10,348 bases of DNA from Chloroflexota bacterium (GTDB taxonomy: Bacteria; Chloroflexota; Dormibacteria; Aeolococcales; Aeolococcaceae), in contig DNAU01000283.1 of NCBI GenBank assembly GCA_003491925.1, positions 1 through 10,348 of the forward strand. The letters are read 5' to 3'. Under the pieces are notes generated by a model that saw nothing but the letters and a program-made list of their open reading frames with translations, did not search any database and was not told the origin of the DNA. Both the position numbers and the translations under genes were made by a program. Positions 5,241-10,329 of the stretch are shown here, one piece after another. Positions within the stretch are counted from its first letter, which is position 1. Each line of letters starts with the position of its first letter.

Positions 5241-6245
5241 TCAAGCGGCGGCGACCAGAAGCCACGCCACGAACACGGCGTAGGCGCCCACGATGAGGGC
5301 GCCCGCCGGCCGGCCCAGGCCGTGCTGCCGGTGGGCGAGGCCGAGGGTCACCGCCGTCAGCCCCAGGTACCACGCCGCCACCAACCCCGCCTCCCCGGCT
5401 GGCCCTCCCAGGCCGACCAACGCGCCGGGGAGGAGGAGGCCGACGACCACATTGAGGCTGTTGCTGTTGAGGGCGATGCTGAGGACCGCCGCGCCCCGTC
5501 CGCGGACGGCGAGGTAAACCGCCGCCACCGCATTGGGCAGGCTGGTCACAGCGGCCAGCACCAGCGCCCCGGTCACGATCTCGGGCACGCCGAAGCTCCG
5601 GCCGAGATCGGAGGCGGCGCGCTCCATGGTGGCGCTCGCCAGCACCACCACGATCAGGGCTACGCCCGCCATCACCATGTCGGTGCGATCGGCGGGGACG
5701 GGGCGGATGGCCGCGTCCAGGTCTCGCTCCTCCTCCACCACCGCGGCGCGCAGCCAGTGCGCCCAGCGGTGCCCGGCAGCGAGACGGCGGAGCAGCCGCC
5801 GGTCGGCACCGAGGAGGACCAGGTACCCGACCAGCGCGAGACCGCTCAGCGCCAGTCCCGCGACCGGGGGGACGGCGCCGAGCACCGACACCATGCACAC
5901 CGCCGCGATCCAGATGGCGATCAGACCGCCGAGGATGACCACCCGGCGCCGGAACCGGATGGCGCCCGCGACCAGGGCGCCGAGGCCCAGGAGCGCGGCG
6001 AGATTGAAGACGTTGGACCCGATGACGACCCCCGCCCCGATCCGCTGCTGATGGTTCACCAGCGCGGTGATCGCCGAGGTGATCTCGGGCGCGTCCGCGG
6101 CCAGGGCGGCGACCATGCCGAGCAGGGCCTCGGAGAGACCGAGCCGCTCGCCCACCCGCTCCAGCCGCGAGACCAGCAGCCAGCTGGTGGCGAGGCTGAC
6201 GCAGGCGGCGAGTGCGAACAGCGGTGCCGCGGCCCCGACCGGCAC
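5241..6245 (-). CDS. CaCA-family cation exchanger (sodium/calcium exchanger-like)
   Basis: A polytopic membrane antiporter of 334 residues, in the range of prokaryotic NCX/CAX proteins, with about ten hydrophobic segments in two inverted halves. The alpha-1 repeat contains ADAPEITSA (Glu54) and GSNVFN (Asn81). The alpha-2 repeat contains VTSLPNAVAA, with Asn238 where the family usually has Glu, followed by NSNSLN (Asn265). A hydrophilic loop with VVEEERDLDAAIRP joins the halves. It probably exchanges Ca2+ or another cation against Na+ or H+, but loss of one of the two acidic ligands makes the substrate uncertain. I chose GTG 6245 because GGGAGG (6257-6252 on the minus strand) lies exactly six bases upstream. 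A longer frame back to TTG 6311 is possible but has no ribosome site and would add a non-membrane leader. It converges with the PadR gene. Confidence 0.88.
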   Translation of the reverse strand: MPVGAAAPLFALAACVSLATSWLLVSRLERVGERLGLSEALLGMVAALAADAPEITSAITALVNHQQRIGAGVVIGSNVFNLAALLGLGALVAGAIRFRRRVVILGGLIAIWIAAVCMVSVLGAVPPVAGLALSGLALVGYLVLLGADRRLLRRLAAGHRWAHWLRAAVVEEERDLDAAIRPVPADRTDMVMAGVALIVVVLASATMERAASDLGRSFGVPEIVTGALVLAAVTSLPNAVAAVYLAVRGRGAAVLSIALNSNSLNVVVGLLLPGALVGLGGPAGEAGLVAAWYLGLTAVTLGLAHRQHGLGRPAGALIVGAYAVFVAWLLVAAA

Positions 6246-6396
6246 AGGAGTCCTCCCTGAACGACAACCTGCCGACCAGACTTCCCGGCACTCCTCGCGA
6301 GACTGTACCAAGCGGGCCAGGTGGCTCGGTCAGCCCGCGCCGGCGCCGGGATGACGCCGCCCCCTCGTCGACGCCGACATACGGGGATGAGTGGTT

Positions 6397-6497: not shown

Positions 6498-6935
6498 ATG
6501 AGAGGCGTGACAAAGGCGTTGAAGGCGTTTGCGGTGATCTCCGCCGGCATCGCCGCGCTCGCCGCCAGCGAGGCCCTGGCCGCCGGCCTGAGCACCACCG
6601 GTCAGAGCCTCGGCGGCGGCCAGCAGACAGTGTCCGCCTGCACGTCCGACACCCTTCGCGTGAGCTACACGACGGCGTACTCACCGGCGGTGGGCAGCGG
6701 CAGCGGCTACGCGGTGACCGGCGTGACCCTCACCGACGCCGCCTCGACCCCCAGCCTGGCCGCCTGCACCGGGCAGGCTTATCGGGTGACCCTCCTCAGC
6801 GCAGCCGGGGTCTCGCTGGGCGCGGTCACGGGCACGGTCCCGGCGGGCGAGACCAGCTTCTCCCCCACCGCCGGCTTCGCCTCGCCGGTGGACGCCTCCG
6901 CGGTCGCGGGGGTGGCCGTGGTCATCGGCGGCTGA
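6498..6935 (+). CDS. Secreted small beta-rich protein, paralog 1 of 4
   Basis: A 145-residue exported protein. A signal peptide (residues 1-28) has a basic start (MRGVTKALK), a hydrophobic core and Ala-rich cleavage region EALAAG. The mature part begins GLSTTGQSLGGG, followed by C48 and C90, which could form a disulfide. The body is Ser/Thr/Gly/Val-rich with alternating hydrophobics, typical of a beta-sandwich. The C-terminus is GVAVVIGG, shared with the next two paralogs. There is no lipobox, sortase motif or membrane anchor. The ATG at 6498 is preceded by GGGGGCGAG; longer versions would extend into a non-coding-like leader. Its signal peptide differs from those of paralogs 2 and 3, and a 299-base gap separates it from them, so it may be transcribed separately. 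I do not recognise a named family; a surface fibre or matrix subunit is my inference from the locus. Confidence 0.88.
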   Translation: MRGVTKALKAFAVISAGIAALAASEALAAGLSTTGQSLGGGQQTVSACTSDTLRVSYTTAYSPAVGSGSGYAVTGVTLTDAASTPSLAACTGQAYRVTLLSAAGVSLGAVTGTVPAGETSFSPTAGFASPVDASAVAGVAVVIGG

Positions 6936-6952
6936 GGCTCCCGAACCTCAGC
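6931..6952 (+). terminator. Hairpin spanning the stop codon of paralog 1
   Basis: GCTGAGG (6931-6937, containing the TGA stop) and CCTCAGC (6946-6952) form a perfect 7-bp stem with an 8-base loop. No T-tract follows. It could help end transcription or protect the 3' end of the first transcript. Confidence 0.3.
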
Positions 6953-7048
6953 TCCGCCCCGCGGCTACGCCCTGGTCATGCACCTCGATCGGAGCGAGCA
7001 CGACCATCGCATCGCAGGCGCCAATGTCTGAGTTCCGTTTCACGAGGA

Positions 7049-7064
7049 CGTGACCGGCGTCACG
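7049..7064. promoter_or_regulatory. CRP/FNR-type palindrome upstream of paralog 2
   Basis: CGTGACCGGCGTCACG is a perfect 6-4-6 dyad that fits the CRP-family core GTGA-N6-TCAC (consensus TGTGA-N6-TCACA) except at the outermost bases. A further TCACG at 7040-7044 forms a second dyad with the left arm and sits exactly 20 bases from the TCACG at 7060-7064. The site is 171 bases before the start of paralog 2, within the 299-base gap. Otherwise that gap (6953-7187) holds only weak promoter-like sequence, such as TTGTGA (7109-7114) with CACTAT (7134-7139). Confidence 0.4.
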
Positions 7065-7187
7065 GGCATGGTGGCGCGGTGACGCCGGGGCAGCAGGGTG
7101 CTGACGCGTTGTGAGCGCCAAATGGTGCAGATGCACTATGGCCCCGTGGGAAGCCTTGCCCAGTGGGCGAGGGCTGACCCGCGATCA

Positions 7188-7363
7188 CCACCCACCCGAA
7201 AACTCTCGATCAGGACAGCGGAGCGAGGAATCAGATGAAGCGAATTCTCGGAGCCATCGCCGCCGGCGTGGTTGCCTTCAGCGGCATCTACGCATTGGCG
7301 GCTAGCCTCAACGTCAGCAGCAACACCCTCGGCGCGGGCGTCGCCACGGTGGCCTCCTGCCAG
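7188..7363 (+). repeat. Tandem duplication, copy 1 (leader plus signal peptide region)
   Basis: This stretch and 7687-7859 share CCACCCACCCGAA, then CGGAGCGA exactly 16 bases before each ATG, then strongly similar coding sequence from ATGAAGCGAAT through the first Cys codon. Similarity then fades. It records a gene duplication that included the 5' leader. Confidence 0.75.
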
Positions 7364-7639
7364 GCCACGGCGGTCACCGTGACCTACCCCGCGGCCGACC
7401 TCACCTACCAGGTCGCCTCGCCCGGGCCGGGCTACGTCGTGAGCGGAGCCACCGTGACCGGTGTCGCGTCGACCTGCAACAGCGTCAACGCCCAGGTGAC
7501 CCTGTACGGCACCGGTGGCACCGCGCTGGCATCCTCGCCGGTCACCTCCACCGGCACCACCGGCAGCTTCACCGTCGCGTTCGCCAGCCCGGCGTCGGCG
7601 AACCTGGTGACCAACGTCGCTGTCGTCATCGGCGGCTAA
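7235..7639 (+). CDS. Secreted small beta-rich protein, paralog 2 of 4
   Basis: A 134-residue exported protein. The signal peptide begins MKRILGAIAAGVVAFSG and ends at YALAA; cleavage probably falls around ALA|ASL. The mature N-terminus SLNVSSNTLGAGVATV leads to C42, with C81 as likely disulfide partner. The rest is Thr/Val/Ser/Gly-rich, predicted beta, and ends TNVAVVIGG. The N-terminal 43 residues match paralog 3 at 32 positions by my count, while the mature body is much less alike. GAGG (7225-7228) lies six bases before the ATG. The NTLGAG pattern after the signal recalls the N-terminal region of SipW-processed TasA-type proteins (compared from memory). With the peptidase gene downstream, this suggests a fibre or matrix subunit; the function is not established. 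Confidence 0.9.
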   Translation: MKRILGAIAAGVVAFSGIYALAASLNVSSNTLGAGVATVASCQATAVTVTYPAADLTYQVASPGPGYVVSGATVTGVASTCNSVNAQVTLYGTGGTALASSPVTSTGTTGSFTVAFASPASANLVTNVAVVIGG

Positions 7640-7686
7640 CAGAACGCGGGAGCGGCCCTCAGGGCACCGCGACTCACCGGCCGCAG

Positions 7687-7859
7687 CCACCCACCCGAAT
7701 CTCCAAGAAACCAACGGAGCGAAGTCCACCATGAAGCGAATCATCGGAGCCACCGTCGCGGGGGTCATCGCCTTCAGCGGCGTCTACGCCCTGGCGGCGA
7801 GCCTCAGCGTCACCAGCGACCAACTCGGCGCGGGCGTGACGACCGTGGCCGCCTGCCAG
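7687..7859 (+). repeat. Tandem duplication, copy 2 (leader plus signal peptide region)
   Basis: The second copy of the unit at 7188-7363: CCACCCACCCGAA at 7687-7699, CGGAGCGA at 7715-7722, then the ATG at 7731 and similar coding sequence. The distance from the first box to the ATG is 44 bases here and 47 in copy 1. Confidence 0.75.
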
Positions 7860-8117
7860 AGCGCAACCCTCAACGCCACCTACGTTCCCAGCTACCAGGC
7901 GAGCGTCCCCGGCTACAGCGCGGGCACCGTCACCCTGAACGGGCTGGCGAGCACCTGCTACGGCGTGCCCTACCGGGTCGAGCTCACCGGCAGCGGTAGC
8001 GCTCCCCTCGGCGAGGCCACCGGTACCACTCCGAGCAGCGGCAGCACCCTGGTGGTGACCCTGACGACCGTGAACGCCGCCTCTGTGACGGGCGTGGCCG
8101 TCGTCCTGGGCGGCTGA
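7731..8117 (+). CDS. Secreted small beta-rich protein, paralog 3 of 4
   Basis: A 128-residue exported protein and the closest relative of paralog 2. The signal peptide MKRIIGATVAGVIAFSG...YALAA is followed by SLSVTSDQLGAGVTTV and C42; C76 is the likely disulfide partner. The Ser/Thr/Gly/Val-rich body is predicted beta and ends TGVAVVLGG. GGAG (7716-7719) and GAAG (7721-7724) precede the ATG. The gene ends with tandem stops TGA TAA (8115-8120), notable in such GC-rich DNA and consistent with a highly translated gene. A strong hairpin follows at 8139-8172. It is 91 bases downstream of paralog 2 and probably co-transcribed with it. The presumed role is structural at the cell surface. Confidence 0.9.
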   Translation: MKRIIGATVAGVIAFSGVYALAASLSVTSDQLGAGVTTVAACQSATLNATYVPSYQASVPGYSAGTVTLNGLASTCYGVPYRVELTGSGSAPLGEATGTTPSSGSTLVVTLTTVNAASVTGVAVVLGG

Positions 8118-8138
8118 TAACCTCGCTTCGCTCCGCCA

Positions 8139-8172
8139 GCGGGTCCTACGGCCTCCCAGCCGCAGGGCCCGC
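8139..8172 (+). terminator. Strong intercistronic hairpin between paralogs 3 and 4
   Basis: GCGGGTCCT (8139-8147) pairs with AGGGCCCGC (8164-8172) with one G-U pair. Inside, after an A-C mismatch, CGGC (8149-8152) pairs with GCCG (8159-8162) around the loop CTCCCA. A short ATTTT (8178-8182) follows six bases later. It fits a partial terminator or mRNA-stabilising stem that would make paralogs 1-3 more abundant than the downstream genes. Confidence 0.5.
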
Positions 8173-8198
8173 CGGCCATTTTCCGGGGTGATGTGGAG

Positions 8199-8591
8199 AT
8201 GAGCAGGTCCCGCGCGATAGTCCGCTTCCTCGCCACCGCCGCCGTGGTGATGGTGGGGACGGCGGTCGTCGGCCGCGCTGCGGGCCTCGCCGACTCAAGC
8301 CACGACATCGGCGCCGGGACCGTTCCGACTCCGCGGTGCACGTCGGCGGCGCTGACCGTGGTGGAGACGGTGACGACCACCTACGTCACCGGCGTCACGG
8401 TGAGCAGCATCCCCTCCTCCTGCGCCGGGGCAACGATCTCTGTGACCATGGCCGAGGGGCCGACGGTCTTCTACACGCCGGCCAGCCAGACCGTTCCCGC
8501 CGGGGGCGGCCAGGTGACCGTGGCCATCCCCTCCGGCGACATCCCGGTCACCGCCGCCGCGGAGGCGGATGTCGTGATGACCGGGCCATGA
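8199..8591 (+). CDS. Secreted small beta-rich protein, divergent paralog 4 of 4
   Basis: A 130-residue exported protein. The signal peptide MSRSRAIVRFLATAAVVM...VVGRAAG has a more basic n-region than its neighbours. The mature start GLADSSHDIGAGTVPTPRC keeps the shared L-x(6)-[LI]-G-[AG]-G pattern and the first Cys (C47); the second is C75. The Thr/Val-rich body is predicted beta, but its C-terminus DVVMTGP lacks the VAVVIGG ending of the other three. I chose ATG 8199 because GGGGTGAT (8185-8192) lies six bases upstream; GTG 8193 is the alternative. Its stop overlaps the next gene by ATGA, so the two are translationally coupled. Different ends and tight coupling to the DNRLRE protein suggest a minor, adaptor or capping component; this is inference. 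Confidence 0.85.
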   Translation: MSRSRAIVRFLATAAVVMVGTAVVGRAAGLADSSHDIGAGTVPTPRCTSAALTVVETVTTTYVTGVTVSSIPSSCAGATISVTMAEGPTVFYTPASQTVPAGGGQVTVAIPSGDIPVTAAAEADVVMTGP

Positions 8592-9307
8592 AGCTCCGCT
8601 ACTGTCTGCTCGCCCTCGGAGCCCTGCTCTGCATCCCCACCGCGTCGGCGGCGAGCCTGAGCCTGGCCGCGCAGAACCTGACCCCGGTCCGGACCTGCAT
8701 CCTGAGCGGCTATCCCACCACCACTACCAACGAGATCGACGCCGCGGTCGAGCAGGGCGGTGCGGGCAACAACTACGGGGCCGCCGCCACCATGGAGGTC
8801 CAGTCGAGCCACAACGCCAACATGCGGGTCTACATTGAGTTCCTGGTCAGCGGTTGCTCCCCGGCCATCCCGGCGAGTGCGATCGTCCGCGTCGCCACCC
8901 TCCGCCTCTGGGCGACCGCGGTGCCGACCAACAACTGCCGGACGGAGGACGCCTTCCCCGTGACCGCATCCTGGAACGAGACCGGGGGCACCGGGATCAC
9001 CTGGAACAACCAGCCCTTCGGAACCACGCTCAACAACCCCGCGAGCGGCTGGACCGCCCAGATGCAGGTGGGAAGCACCTGCACAACCAACAAGGCCGCG
9101 GGCTACGTCAGCGGCTGGACGGTCACCGCTGACGTCGCGAAGTTCGTGGCGGGAGGCGCCGCCGACTACGGATGGATGATCCGCGACAGCGCCGAGCTCA
9201 CCGCCGCCGGCACCGCCTACCACGCCACCTACGAGGCCAAGAACGGGGAGACCCTCAACGCCACCGAGGACCCGCAGCTCGTGATCACCTATGTGGACGT
9301 GCCGTGA
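8588..9307 (+). CDS. Secreted DNRLRE-domain protein
   Basis: A 239-residue exported protein. The signal peptide MKLRYCLLALGALLCIPTASA is followed by ASLSLAAQNLTPVRTC, which resembles the mature N-terminus of the four preceding proteins up to the Cys (C37). From about residue 48 it reads as a DNRLRE/CBM96-type beta-sandwich: NEIDAAVEQGGAGNNYG, then TMEVQSS, NMRVYIEF, ATLRLWAT, ASWNET...GITWNNQPF, a central VTADVAKFV strand, a YGWMIRD strand, and LVITYVDVP at the end. Domains of this type bind carbohydrate or act as adhesive modules on secreted enzymes and surface proteins. Six or so Cys residues suggest disulfides. The ATG lies in the ATGA overlap with the gene before, and the stop overlaps the peptidase gene by GTGA. 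It is probably the binding or tip component of the same surface system. Confidence 0.9.
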   Translation: MKLRYCLLALGALLCIPTASAASLSLAAQNLTPVRTCILSGYPTTTTNEIDAAVEQGGAGNNYGAAATMEVQSSHNANMRVYIEFLVSGCSPAIPASAIVRVATLRLWATAVPTNNCRTEDAFPVTASWNETGGTGITWNNQPFGTTLNNPASGWTAQMQVGSTCTTNKAAGYVSGWTVTADVAKFVAGGAADYGWMIRDSAELTAAGTAYHATYEAKNGETLNATEDPQLVITYVDVP

Positions 9308-10329
9308 GCCAGGTCGGCACCGTCCCCAGGCGGCCCACGGGCGTCCACCCGCTCCGCCAACTGAGCCTGACCGCGTCCGCCCTCTCGGAGCTGGGCGCCC
9401 TGCTCGACCCGCTCCGCTCGCTGGCCACCGCGGCTCTCGAGCGCCGGGTGGTGCGCGTTCCGAGCGCGCCCGCGGGGGCCACGGGCGCACGGGCTCGCCC
9501 GAGCACCCCGAAGCCCCGCCCGGCGGAACGGAGGATCTCGGTCGCCGAGCCGTCTGCTGGGACCACCACCCCAGCCGTGGCCCAGCAGCTCGTCGCCAGC
9601 CTCCGCCGGCCGGCCAACATCGCCTTCCTGGCCGTGCTCATGGTGGTGCTGACGGCCTGGTGGGTGGAGCTTCGCCCCACCTCCCTCCTCGGCGGACCGG
9701 CCACCTTCATCACCGTCAAGGGCACCTCGATGCTGCCCACGCTGAAGACCGGCGACTTCGTTCTCGCCGAGGCGCAGGCCGCCTACAAGGTGGGTGACCT
9801 GGTCGTCTACCGGGTTCCCAAGGGCCAGATCGGGGCCGGGGACGACCTGATCCACCGGATCGTCGCGGGCAACGCCACCGTCGGATTCACGCTCAAGGGC
9901 GACAACAACCCCGCCCCCGACCCCTGGACGGTGCCGCGCAGCGACATCCTGGGGAAGGAGGCGGTGGTGATCGGCGGCTTCGGGAGCACCCTCCTGGTCC
10001 TCCGCAGTCCCCTCTTCGCCGGGCTGGCCGCCGCCCTCATCGCCATGTGGGTCGTGCTCAGCCCGCCGGAATGGCTGGGTCGGAAGAGACCGGCGGTGAA
10101 GGCGTCCGCGTCCGCGTCAGCGACGGAACCGGCATCGGTGCCGGTGCCGGAGCCGGCCCGCATCGGCGCCGAGCCTTCTCCGTCGACCGCCACCTCGGCG
10201 GGACTCCCCAAGCGCGTCCCCCGGGCGGCGCCGCGTCCCCGCCCCGATCGGCCCGGGCGGCCCCCCTCGCGGGCTCCAGCGCGGCCCCGCCCCCGGCGAT
10301 CGGCCCCGCCGATCCCCCCCGAGGTCTAA
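9304..10329 (+). CDS. Signal peptidase I, Ser/His (SipW/ER-like, S26B) type
   Basis: A 341-residue membrane serine peptidase that removes signal peptides on the outer face of the membrane. The GTG start lies in the GTGA overlap with the DNRLRE gene. A 100-residue Pro/Ala/Arg-rich cytoplasmic region precedes TM1 (about 104-121). The catalytic domain has VKGTSMLPTLKTGDFVL (Ser142 nucleophile), VGDLVVYRVP, DDLIHRIVAGN (His184, where bacterial LepB has Lys) and LKGDNNPAPDPW (Asp200). TM2 follows at about 237-255, then an 86-residue Ala/Pro/Arg-rich tail. The Ser/His dyad marks the SipW/archaeal/ER branch. SipW of Bacillus matures TasA and TapA, so its position right after five secreted proteins points to dedicated processing of those products. 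The gene ends at TAA 10327-10329; the remaining 19 bases hold nothing recognisable. Confidence 0.93.
   Translation: MSQVGTVPRRPTGVHPLRQLSLTASALSELGALLDPLRSLATAALERRVVRVPSAPAGATGARARPSTPKPRPAERRISVAEPSAGTTTPAVAQQLVASLRRPANIAFLAVLMVVLTAWWVELRPTSLLGGPATFITVKGTSMLPTLKTGDFVLAEAQAAYKVGDLVVYRVPKGQIGAGDDLIHRIVAGNATVGFTLKGDNNPAPDPWTVPRSDILGKEAVVIGGFGSTLLVLRSPLFAGLAAALIAMWVVLSPPEWLGRKRPAVKASASASATEPASVPVPEPARIGAEPSPSTATSAGLPKRVPRAAPRPRPDRPGRPPSRAPARPRPRRSAPPIPPEV

Follow-up and report, generated by a model that had tools for sequence, protein, structure and literature searches.

We describe a conserved set of six genes on the 10,348-base contig DNAU01000283.1 of a Chloroflexota bacterium (this contig, analysed whole, is the window; the genome is 2.65 Mb, 71% complete), in which four small proteins, S1 to S4, and a protein of the DNRLRE family, all five predicted to be exported, are encoded next to a signal peptidase of S26B type. 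The set is organised like tapA-sipW-tasA of Bacillus subtilis, although by the models tested it is a member of neither the TasA nor the SipW family. We propose, largely by analogy with that system, that it encodes a donor-strand fibre resembling that of TasA/TapA, with exchangeable tips and a processing S26B peptidase of its own, and on balance we consider this reading probable. Here and in all loci compared, export was called by reading the N-termini. The features of the locus are as follows.

6498..6935, plus strand: S1, predicted exported small beta subunit, 145 residues; the start is backed by homologues opening MRGV
7235..7639, plus strand: S2, predicted exported small beta subunit, 134 residues
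7731..8117, plus strand: S3, predicted exported small beta subunit, 128 residues; the one modelled
8199..8591, plus strand: S4, the fourth subunit in its short form, 130 residues from the likelier start, ATG 8199
8588..8591, plus strand: ATGA start/stop overlap of S4 and the DNRLRE gene
8588..9307, plus strand: DNRLRE/CBM96 protein, predicted tip or adaptor (PF24517, 2.7e-15; NF033679, 3e-16)
9304..9307, plus strand: GTGA start/stop overlap of the DNRLRE and peptidase genes
9304..10329, plus strand: S26B-type signal peptidase with Ser142/His184 (TIGR02228, 6.9e-19, and PF10502, both over cut-off)

All six plus-strand genes and both overlaps had been reported in a first-pass annotation made from the letters of the window, and all are present where it put them. 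Homologues favour ATG 8199 as the start of S4 over the GTG at 8193 given there. Its claim of five exported proteins stands as a prediction: a charged start, a hydrophobic run and an A-x-A site can be read off each N-terminus.

Profile searches with S1–S3 matched 9 of 110 genomes of the class, 9 of 301 in the phylum set (own genome included) and 7 of 22 in one outside family; the phylum set also holds genomes with Chloroflexi contig names, and NCBI ranks Candidatus Dormiibacterota as a phylum. One locus was opened in each of the 19 distinct genomes with a match, the window included. The first-pass annotation had expected the subunits to occur together with an S26B peptidase in related genomes, and had held that homologues mostly without such a neighbour would speak against its reading. 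In 17 of the 19 loci (16 in other genomes) an S26B gene is adjacent to the subunits on the same strand, so that the tapA-sipW-tasA-like trait of an S26B gene next to predicted exported substrates recurs across genomes; this count includes L047, where the contig ends within the peptidase gene. The two remaining loci are L029, where the contig ends, and L052, which has a single weak match and no peptidase. The DNRLRE gene lies between S4 and the S26B gene in 12 of the 17. Its overlap with the peptidase gene is exactly four bases in every one of these 12, and the S4–DNRLRE overlap is four bases in 11. Because the S26B adjacency and the four-base overlaps are conserved, the grouping of these genes is more than chance, and we regard the set as real and conserved.

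Four loci (L022, L023, L025 and L026) have no DNRLRE gene and a long S4 of 168–185 residues; the 12 loci with DNRLRE have a short S4, of 106–131 residues by the starts chosen. A long S4 is thus seen only where DNRLRE is missing (4/4 without versus 0/12 with it), and the two may replace each other. L051 has neither, and a further weak subunit match lies behind its peptidase gene. The contig scan found two loci; close relatives in named records are the Candidatus Dormiibacterota bins 'fen_879' and 'palsa_874'. All but one of the 25 neighbour clusters listed, each present in at least three loci, are confined to the genus, and the six-gene cluster therefore probably moves as a unit. The exception is a transporter-like family also found in L046, 3.3 kb away on the opposite strand; a conserved seventh gene was dropped as a candidate on these grounds.

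The sixth gene had been called a signal peptidase with a Ser142/His184 pair, and that call is borne out. The protein scores 68.3 bits against TIGR02228 (curated cut-off 51.85), a match type that we take to denote S26B. Both residues are invariant in all eight peptidases aligned, and Ser, His and GD at matching columns are invariant in 14 of 14. Among proteins of solved structure it is closest to SEC11C (E 1.6e-8), and it bears a GDNNxxPDPW box. Two further features frame this core: an N-terminal extension of about 100 residues (9304-9600) with a conserved LxELGALLDPLR-like stretch, which is also present in L022, L023, L024 and L026 and not in L027 or L028, and a Pro/Arg-rich tail (10080-10329).

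The predicted mature proteins begin alike. The common start of the subunits reads AASLxVTSxxLGAG, and a similar segment, or tag, opens the DNRLRE protein:

6582..6614, plus strand: predicted mature N-terminal tag of S1, AGLSTTGQSLG
7301..7333, plus strand: predicted mature N-terminal tag of S2, ASLNVSSNTLG
7797..7829, plus strand: predicted mature N-terminal tag of S3, ASLSVTSDQLG; predicted local distance difference test score (pLDDT) under 50 in both AlphaFold models
8280..8312, plus strand: predicted mature N-terminal tag of S4, AGLADSSHDIG
8651..8683, plus strand: tag of like kind, ASLSLAAQNLT, preceding the CBM96 domain in the DNRLRE protein

Mature residues 1–12 are more conserved than the rest of the subunit (mean column entropy 0.78 versus 1.21), with a conserved L and G at positions 11–12. 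The same residues are predicted with pLDDT under 50 in the model of mature S3, as are residues 15–36 in the precursor model. A tag profile was built from 41 subunit segments (32 unique) and slid over each DNRLRE protein against 2000 shuffles; two S4 segments (L028, L050) were left out of the profile in all tag tests as misanchored. The best window of the whole DNRLRE protein fell at its predicted mature N-terminus in 10 of 12 cases, and it was reached by at most 1% of shuffles in seven (eight with 9-mers). The DNRLRE proteins of L028 and L050 show no tag, and those of L027, L047 and L048 are weak in the shuffle test. Control proteins, other exported-looking open reading frames beside the loci, passed at 1% in 0 of 105 and 2 of 46 cases. 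This shared N-terminus strengthens two earlier ideas, that the peptidase is dedicated to its neighbours and that the DNRLRE protein is a tip; the comparison with TasA and camelysin that accompanied them was negative when made with PF12389. S1–S4 have no match to this family at E 1, and the source genome, as far as its 71% completeness goes, has none at E 0.01 (B. subtilis, the control, was positive). TasA membership by PF12389 was dropped as a candidate.

As the first-pass annotation held, the subunits are four paralogs (S4 is related to S1–S3, hhalign 99.4%) that resemble no family we can name: S1–S4 have no Pfam or NCBIfam match over cut-off. The weak matches are of S2 to DUF4082 (E 0.014, 15.8 of 28.4 bits) and two more in NCBIfam (E 0.14 and 0.85). 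The S1–S3 profile scores 269 proteins in a large protein set, the best 120 of which carry no Pfam domain and are mostly unnamed or 'hypothetical protein'; searched against PDB sequences, the subunit profile had no match below E 0.19. AlphaFold predicts S3 to be a beta-sandwich, 'Ig-like' being our own label, and neither a significant fold match nor an enzyme active site is indicated in the model. An enzyme fold with a clear active site, which would have counted against a structural role, did not appear in this prediction. TasA is absent among the fold matches listed for S3, an absence of little weight given mediocre models. We also dropped an enzyme reading of the subunits, there being no consistent enzyme family in Pfam or NCBIfam; among 76 family members NCBIfam matches were few, weak and scattered, and the best of them, one member's to a transaminase model (E 0.0011), was taken as chance.

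The DNRLRE protein exceeds its curated cut-offs (57 versus 26 bits for PF24517; 59.9 versus 34 for NF033679), and its closest solved relative is 8wab (E 8.2e-8). From this family assignment it would be a carbohydrate-binding head. A single-sequence search found matches in 4 of 101 genomes, its own counted. It resembles other DNRLRE/CBM96 proteins in its domain and adds to it the tagged N-terminus and the four-base coupling to the S26B gene.

A second class of loci repeats this arrangement with a different partner. The peptidase profile matched 55 of the 301 genomes, eight of which the S1–S3 profile also matched; from the other 47 we opened 12 loci (L107–L118), mostly the best scoring. In ten of these, a small exported-looking protein and an RTX-type protein lie beside the S26B gene (in L108 by eye). 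In the nine loci L109–L117, an exported-looking protein of 118–133 residues ending near L[RN][VI]VA is encoded upstream of the S26B gene and an exported-looking RTX-type protein downstream, and in eight of the nine the S26B gene is one open reading frame of about 490–800 residues. Three RTX-type proteins were compared with PF00353: two were over cut-off and one reached 22.2 of 23 bits. The one fused peptidase reading frame compared had a match to DUF5305 (8.7e-4) that stayed under the cut-off. In L108 an S4-like protein (E 2.4e-5) accompanies the RTX-like protein, L107 has no recognisable subunit, and L118 looks by eye like a classic SipW substrate. Tandem copies occur as well, of two RTX-type proteins in L114 (3559-4498) and two small subunits in L115 (5328-6169), each pair next to one long peptidase reading frame.

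RTX-class subunits and RTX proteins, too, have a common start, around [AST]NTVPxT, from which L109–L111, L116 and L117 deviate. The own-class tag has its best window at the N-terminus in nine of ten RTX proteins, seven passing at 1% of shuffles; cross-class tags pass at 1% in 0 of 10 RTX and 0 of 12 DNRLRE proteins, with best windows still within the first 50 residues in 4 of 10 and 1 of 12, respectively. Because own-class tags match and cross-class tags do not at this level, the subunits and the tip of a class carry the tag of that class, the named exceptions aside. The small proteins of the two classes align by profile (93.6%, E 2.2e-7, partly via the signal region), and the DNRLRE and RTX tip families have no similarity beyond the signal region (hhalign 5%). 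The RTX-class subunit profile scores 1723 relatives; the best 120 have no Pfam domain and are mostly unnamed or 'hypothetical protein'. One relative (P0305) belongs to Oscillochloris sp. ZM17-4, a named organism, and another (P0229) is named a FlaG/FlaF family archaellin by one source, perhaps through an automatic call.

The closest known parallels are the Bacillus fibre systems. TasA residues 28–38, at the mature start, are described as the donor strand, and the N-terminus of TapA, which resembles that of TasA, is proposed to initiate the fibre (PMC9674648, PMC10151520); the tapA stop overlaps the sipW start (PMC10151520). Like tapA-sipW-tasA, and like sipW-calY1-bc_1280-calY2 of B. cereus, the window clusters an S26B-type peptidase with predicted exported substrates. 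As in the B. subtilis operon, a minor-protein gene overlaps the peptidase gene, and like TasA and TapA, its fibre subunit and minor protein would share a mature N-terminus. Unlike TasA, a single 26-kDa jelly roll, the window encodes several subunits of about 130 residues, with no PF12389 match; unlike SipW, its peptidase reaches 23.9 bits against the SipW equivalog NF046067, below the cut-off of 190; and unlike TapA, the minor protein is of CBM96 or RTX type. Archaeal threads (Saci_0406/0405) are described as Sec-exported subunits with a signal peptidase I site that are joined by donor strands, with homologues identical in their first mature residues and a candidate cap gene beside them (PMC9715654). 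We liken threads and bundling pili to the window system by description; the thread descriptions available to us mention no linked peptidase.

From the linked S26B peptidase, the conserved mature N-terminus and the second protein sharing that N-terminus, all seen in two classes, we infer a donor-strand fibre. All five precursors would be exported by Sec, and the adjacent membrane peptidase would remove their signal peptides at A-x-A. The new N-terminus, which neither monomer model places, would then serve as a donor strand that enters the sandwich of the following subunit, in the manner of TasA residues 28–38. The DNRLRE protein, with its like segment before an unrelated domain, would occupy a subunit groove as a terminal piece, by analogy with the TapA N-terminus, and offer its carbohydrate-binding head. 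This head may be exchangeable for, perhaps, the long S4 or, in other Chloroflexota, for an RTX beta-roll with a class-specific tag. No chaperone-usher would be needed, because the cell is likely without an outer membrane, an absence reported for Chloroflexota (PMC12488501).

The main alternative is that the tag is mere cleavage-site context for a dedicated peptidase, and that the resulting matrix proteins, secreted or wall-bound, stay separate and form no strand-exchange polymer. The position of the tag directly after the A-x-A site fits this, as does its being class-specific, like the peptidase. But signal peptidases read mainly positions −3 and −1 and do not reach 11 residues past the cleavage site; the L and G conserved at mature positions 11–12 lie far from that site, and several paralogs per locus suit polymer subunits. 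We regard this alternative as unlikely, if a serious one. Less likely still is an S-layer-like or amorphous coat of S1–S4, with the DNRLRE or RTX protein as a surface lectin or calcium-binding coat component and no discrete fibre. Small, beta-rich, exported-looking paralogs and a cluster with no anchor or assembly gene are in keeping with a coat, as are RTX repeats (PF00353), which fold outside the cell in dependence on calcium; an N-terminal segment common to subunit and tip in two classes points instead to a subunit-tip joint. Finally, type IV or archaellin-like pilins, keeping a hydrophobic N-terminus as filament core, are very improbable despite the conserved hydrophobic run and the name given to P0229, since in 17 of 19 loci the peptidase beside the subunits is of S26B type and no prepilin peptidase, and the recurring neighbours listed include no pilus ATPase- or platform-like protein (no search for them was made elsewhere in the genomes).

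Beyond the donor-strand fibre of the window, we tentatively raise a broader idea, to which we give somewhat less than even credence: that chaperone-free fibres occur Chloroflexota-wide, with an 11-residue class-specific tag, exposed by the linked S26B peptidase, acting as the plug on subunits and on any end domain, so that tips are swapped by tag fusion. If these proposals hold, donor-strand fibres with S26B-type processing would extend well beyond Bacillaceae and archaea and be independent of the TasA sequence family, one plug would mount different heads, and subunit families of 269 and 1723 scored relatives, in bacteria of soil and water, many of them known from genome bins, would gain a role. 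Literature searches on Dormibacter, Limnocylindr, Chloroflex SipW, and DNRLRE with signal peptidase gave no description of the gene set among the titles and matches listed, and the system appears undescribed.

Of the five S26 matches in the same genome, one is the window's, C282 and C257 hold one each, and C50 holds two, one of them under cut-off. The C282 gene matches PF10502 strongly (1.1e-42) and is LepB-like, and the other four are divergent; the window peptidase is encoded apart from this ordinary gene. On C50 (7350-8922 of locus L058), an exported-looking protein that is TasA-like by eye directly precedes a SipW-like S26B-type gene, an arrangement like that of the window; its start (ATFTANTTSTQSISAGTLSL) is of TasA kind by eye, unlike those of the window's subunits. 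A second S26B-type gene lies at 1220-2446 of that locus. On the minus strand of C257 (3448-7442 of locus L059), three exported-looking paralogs (starting ..GWGGLAAWQAYTQNAGNAFAVGTL or similar) stand beside an S26-like open reading frame. Given these two pairings, the cell probably has three peptidase-substrate sets, the window system being one of them.

Within the window, a promoter scan found no sigma-70-like promoter, and terminator-like sites number two against 0.9 expected. The stretches leading into S2 (7186-7234) and S3 (7685-7730) are alike (CCACCCACCCGAA...), perhaps from gene duplication. Divergent from S1, the minus strand at 5241-6311 encodes what is by eye a cation-exchanger-like membrane protein, and this open reading frame is also present in L025 and L029.

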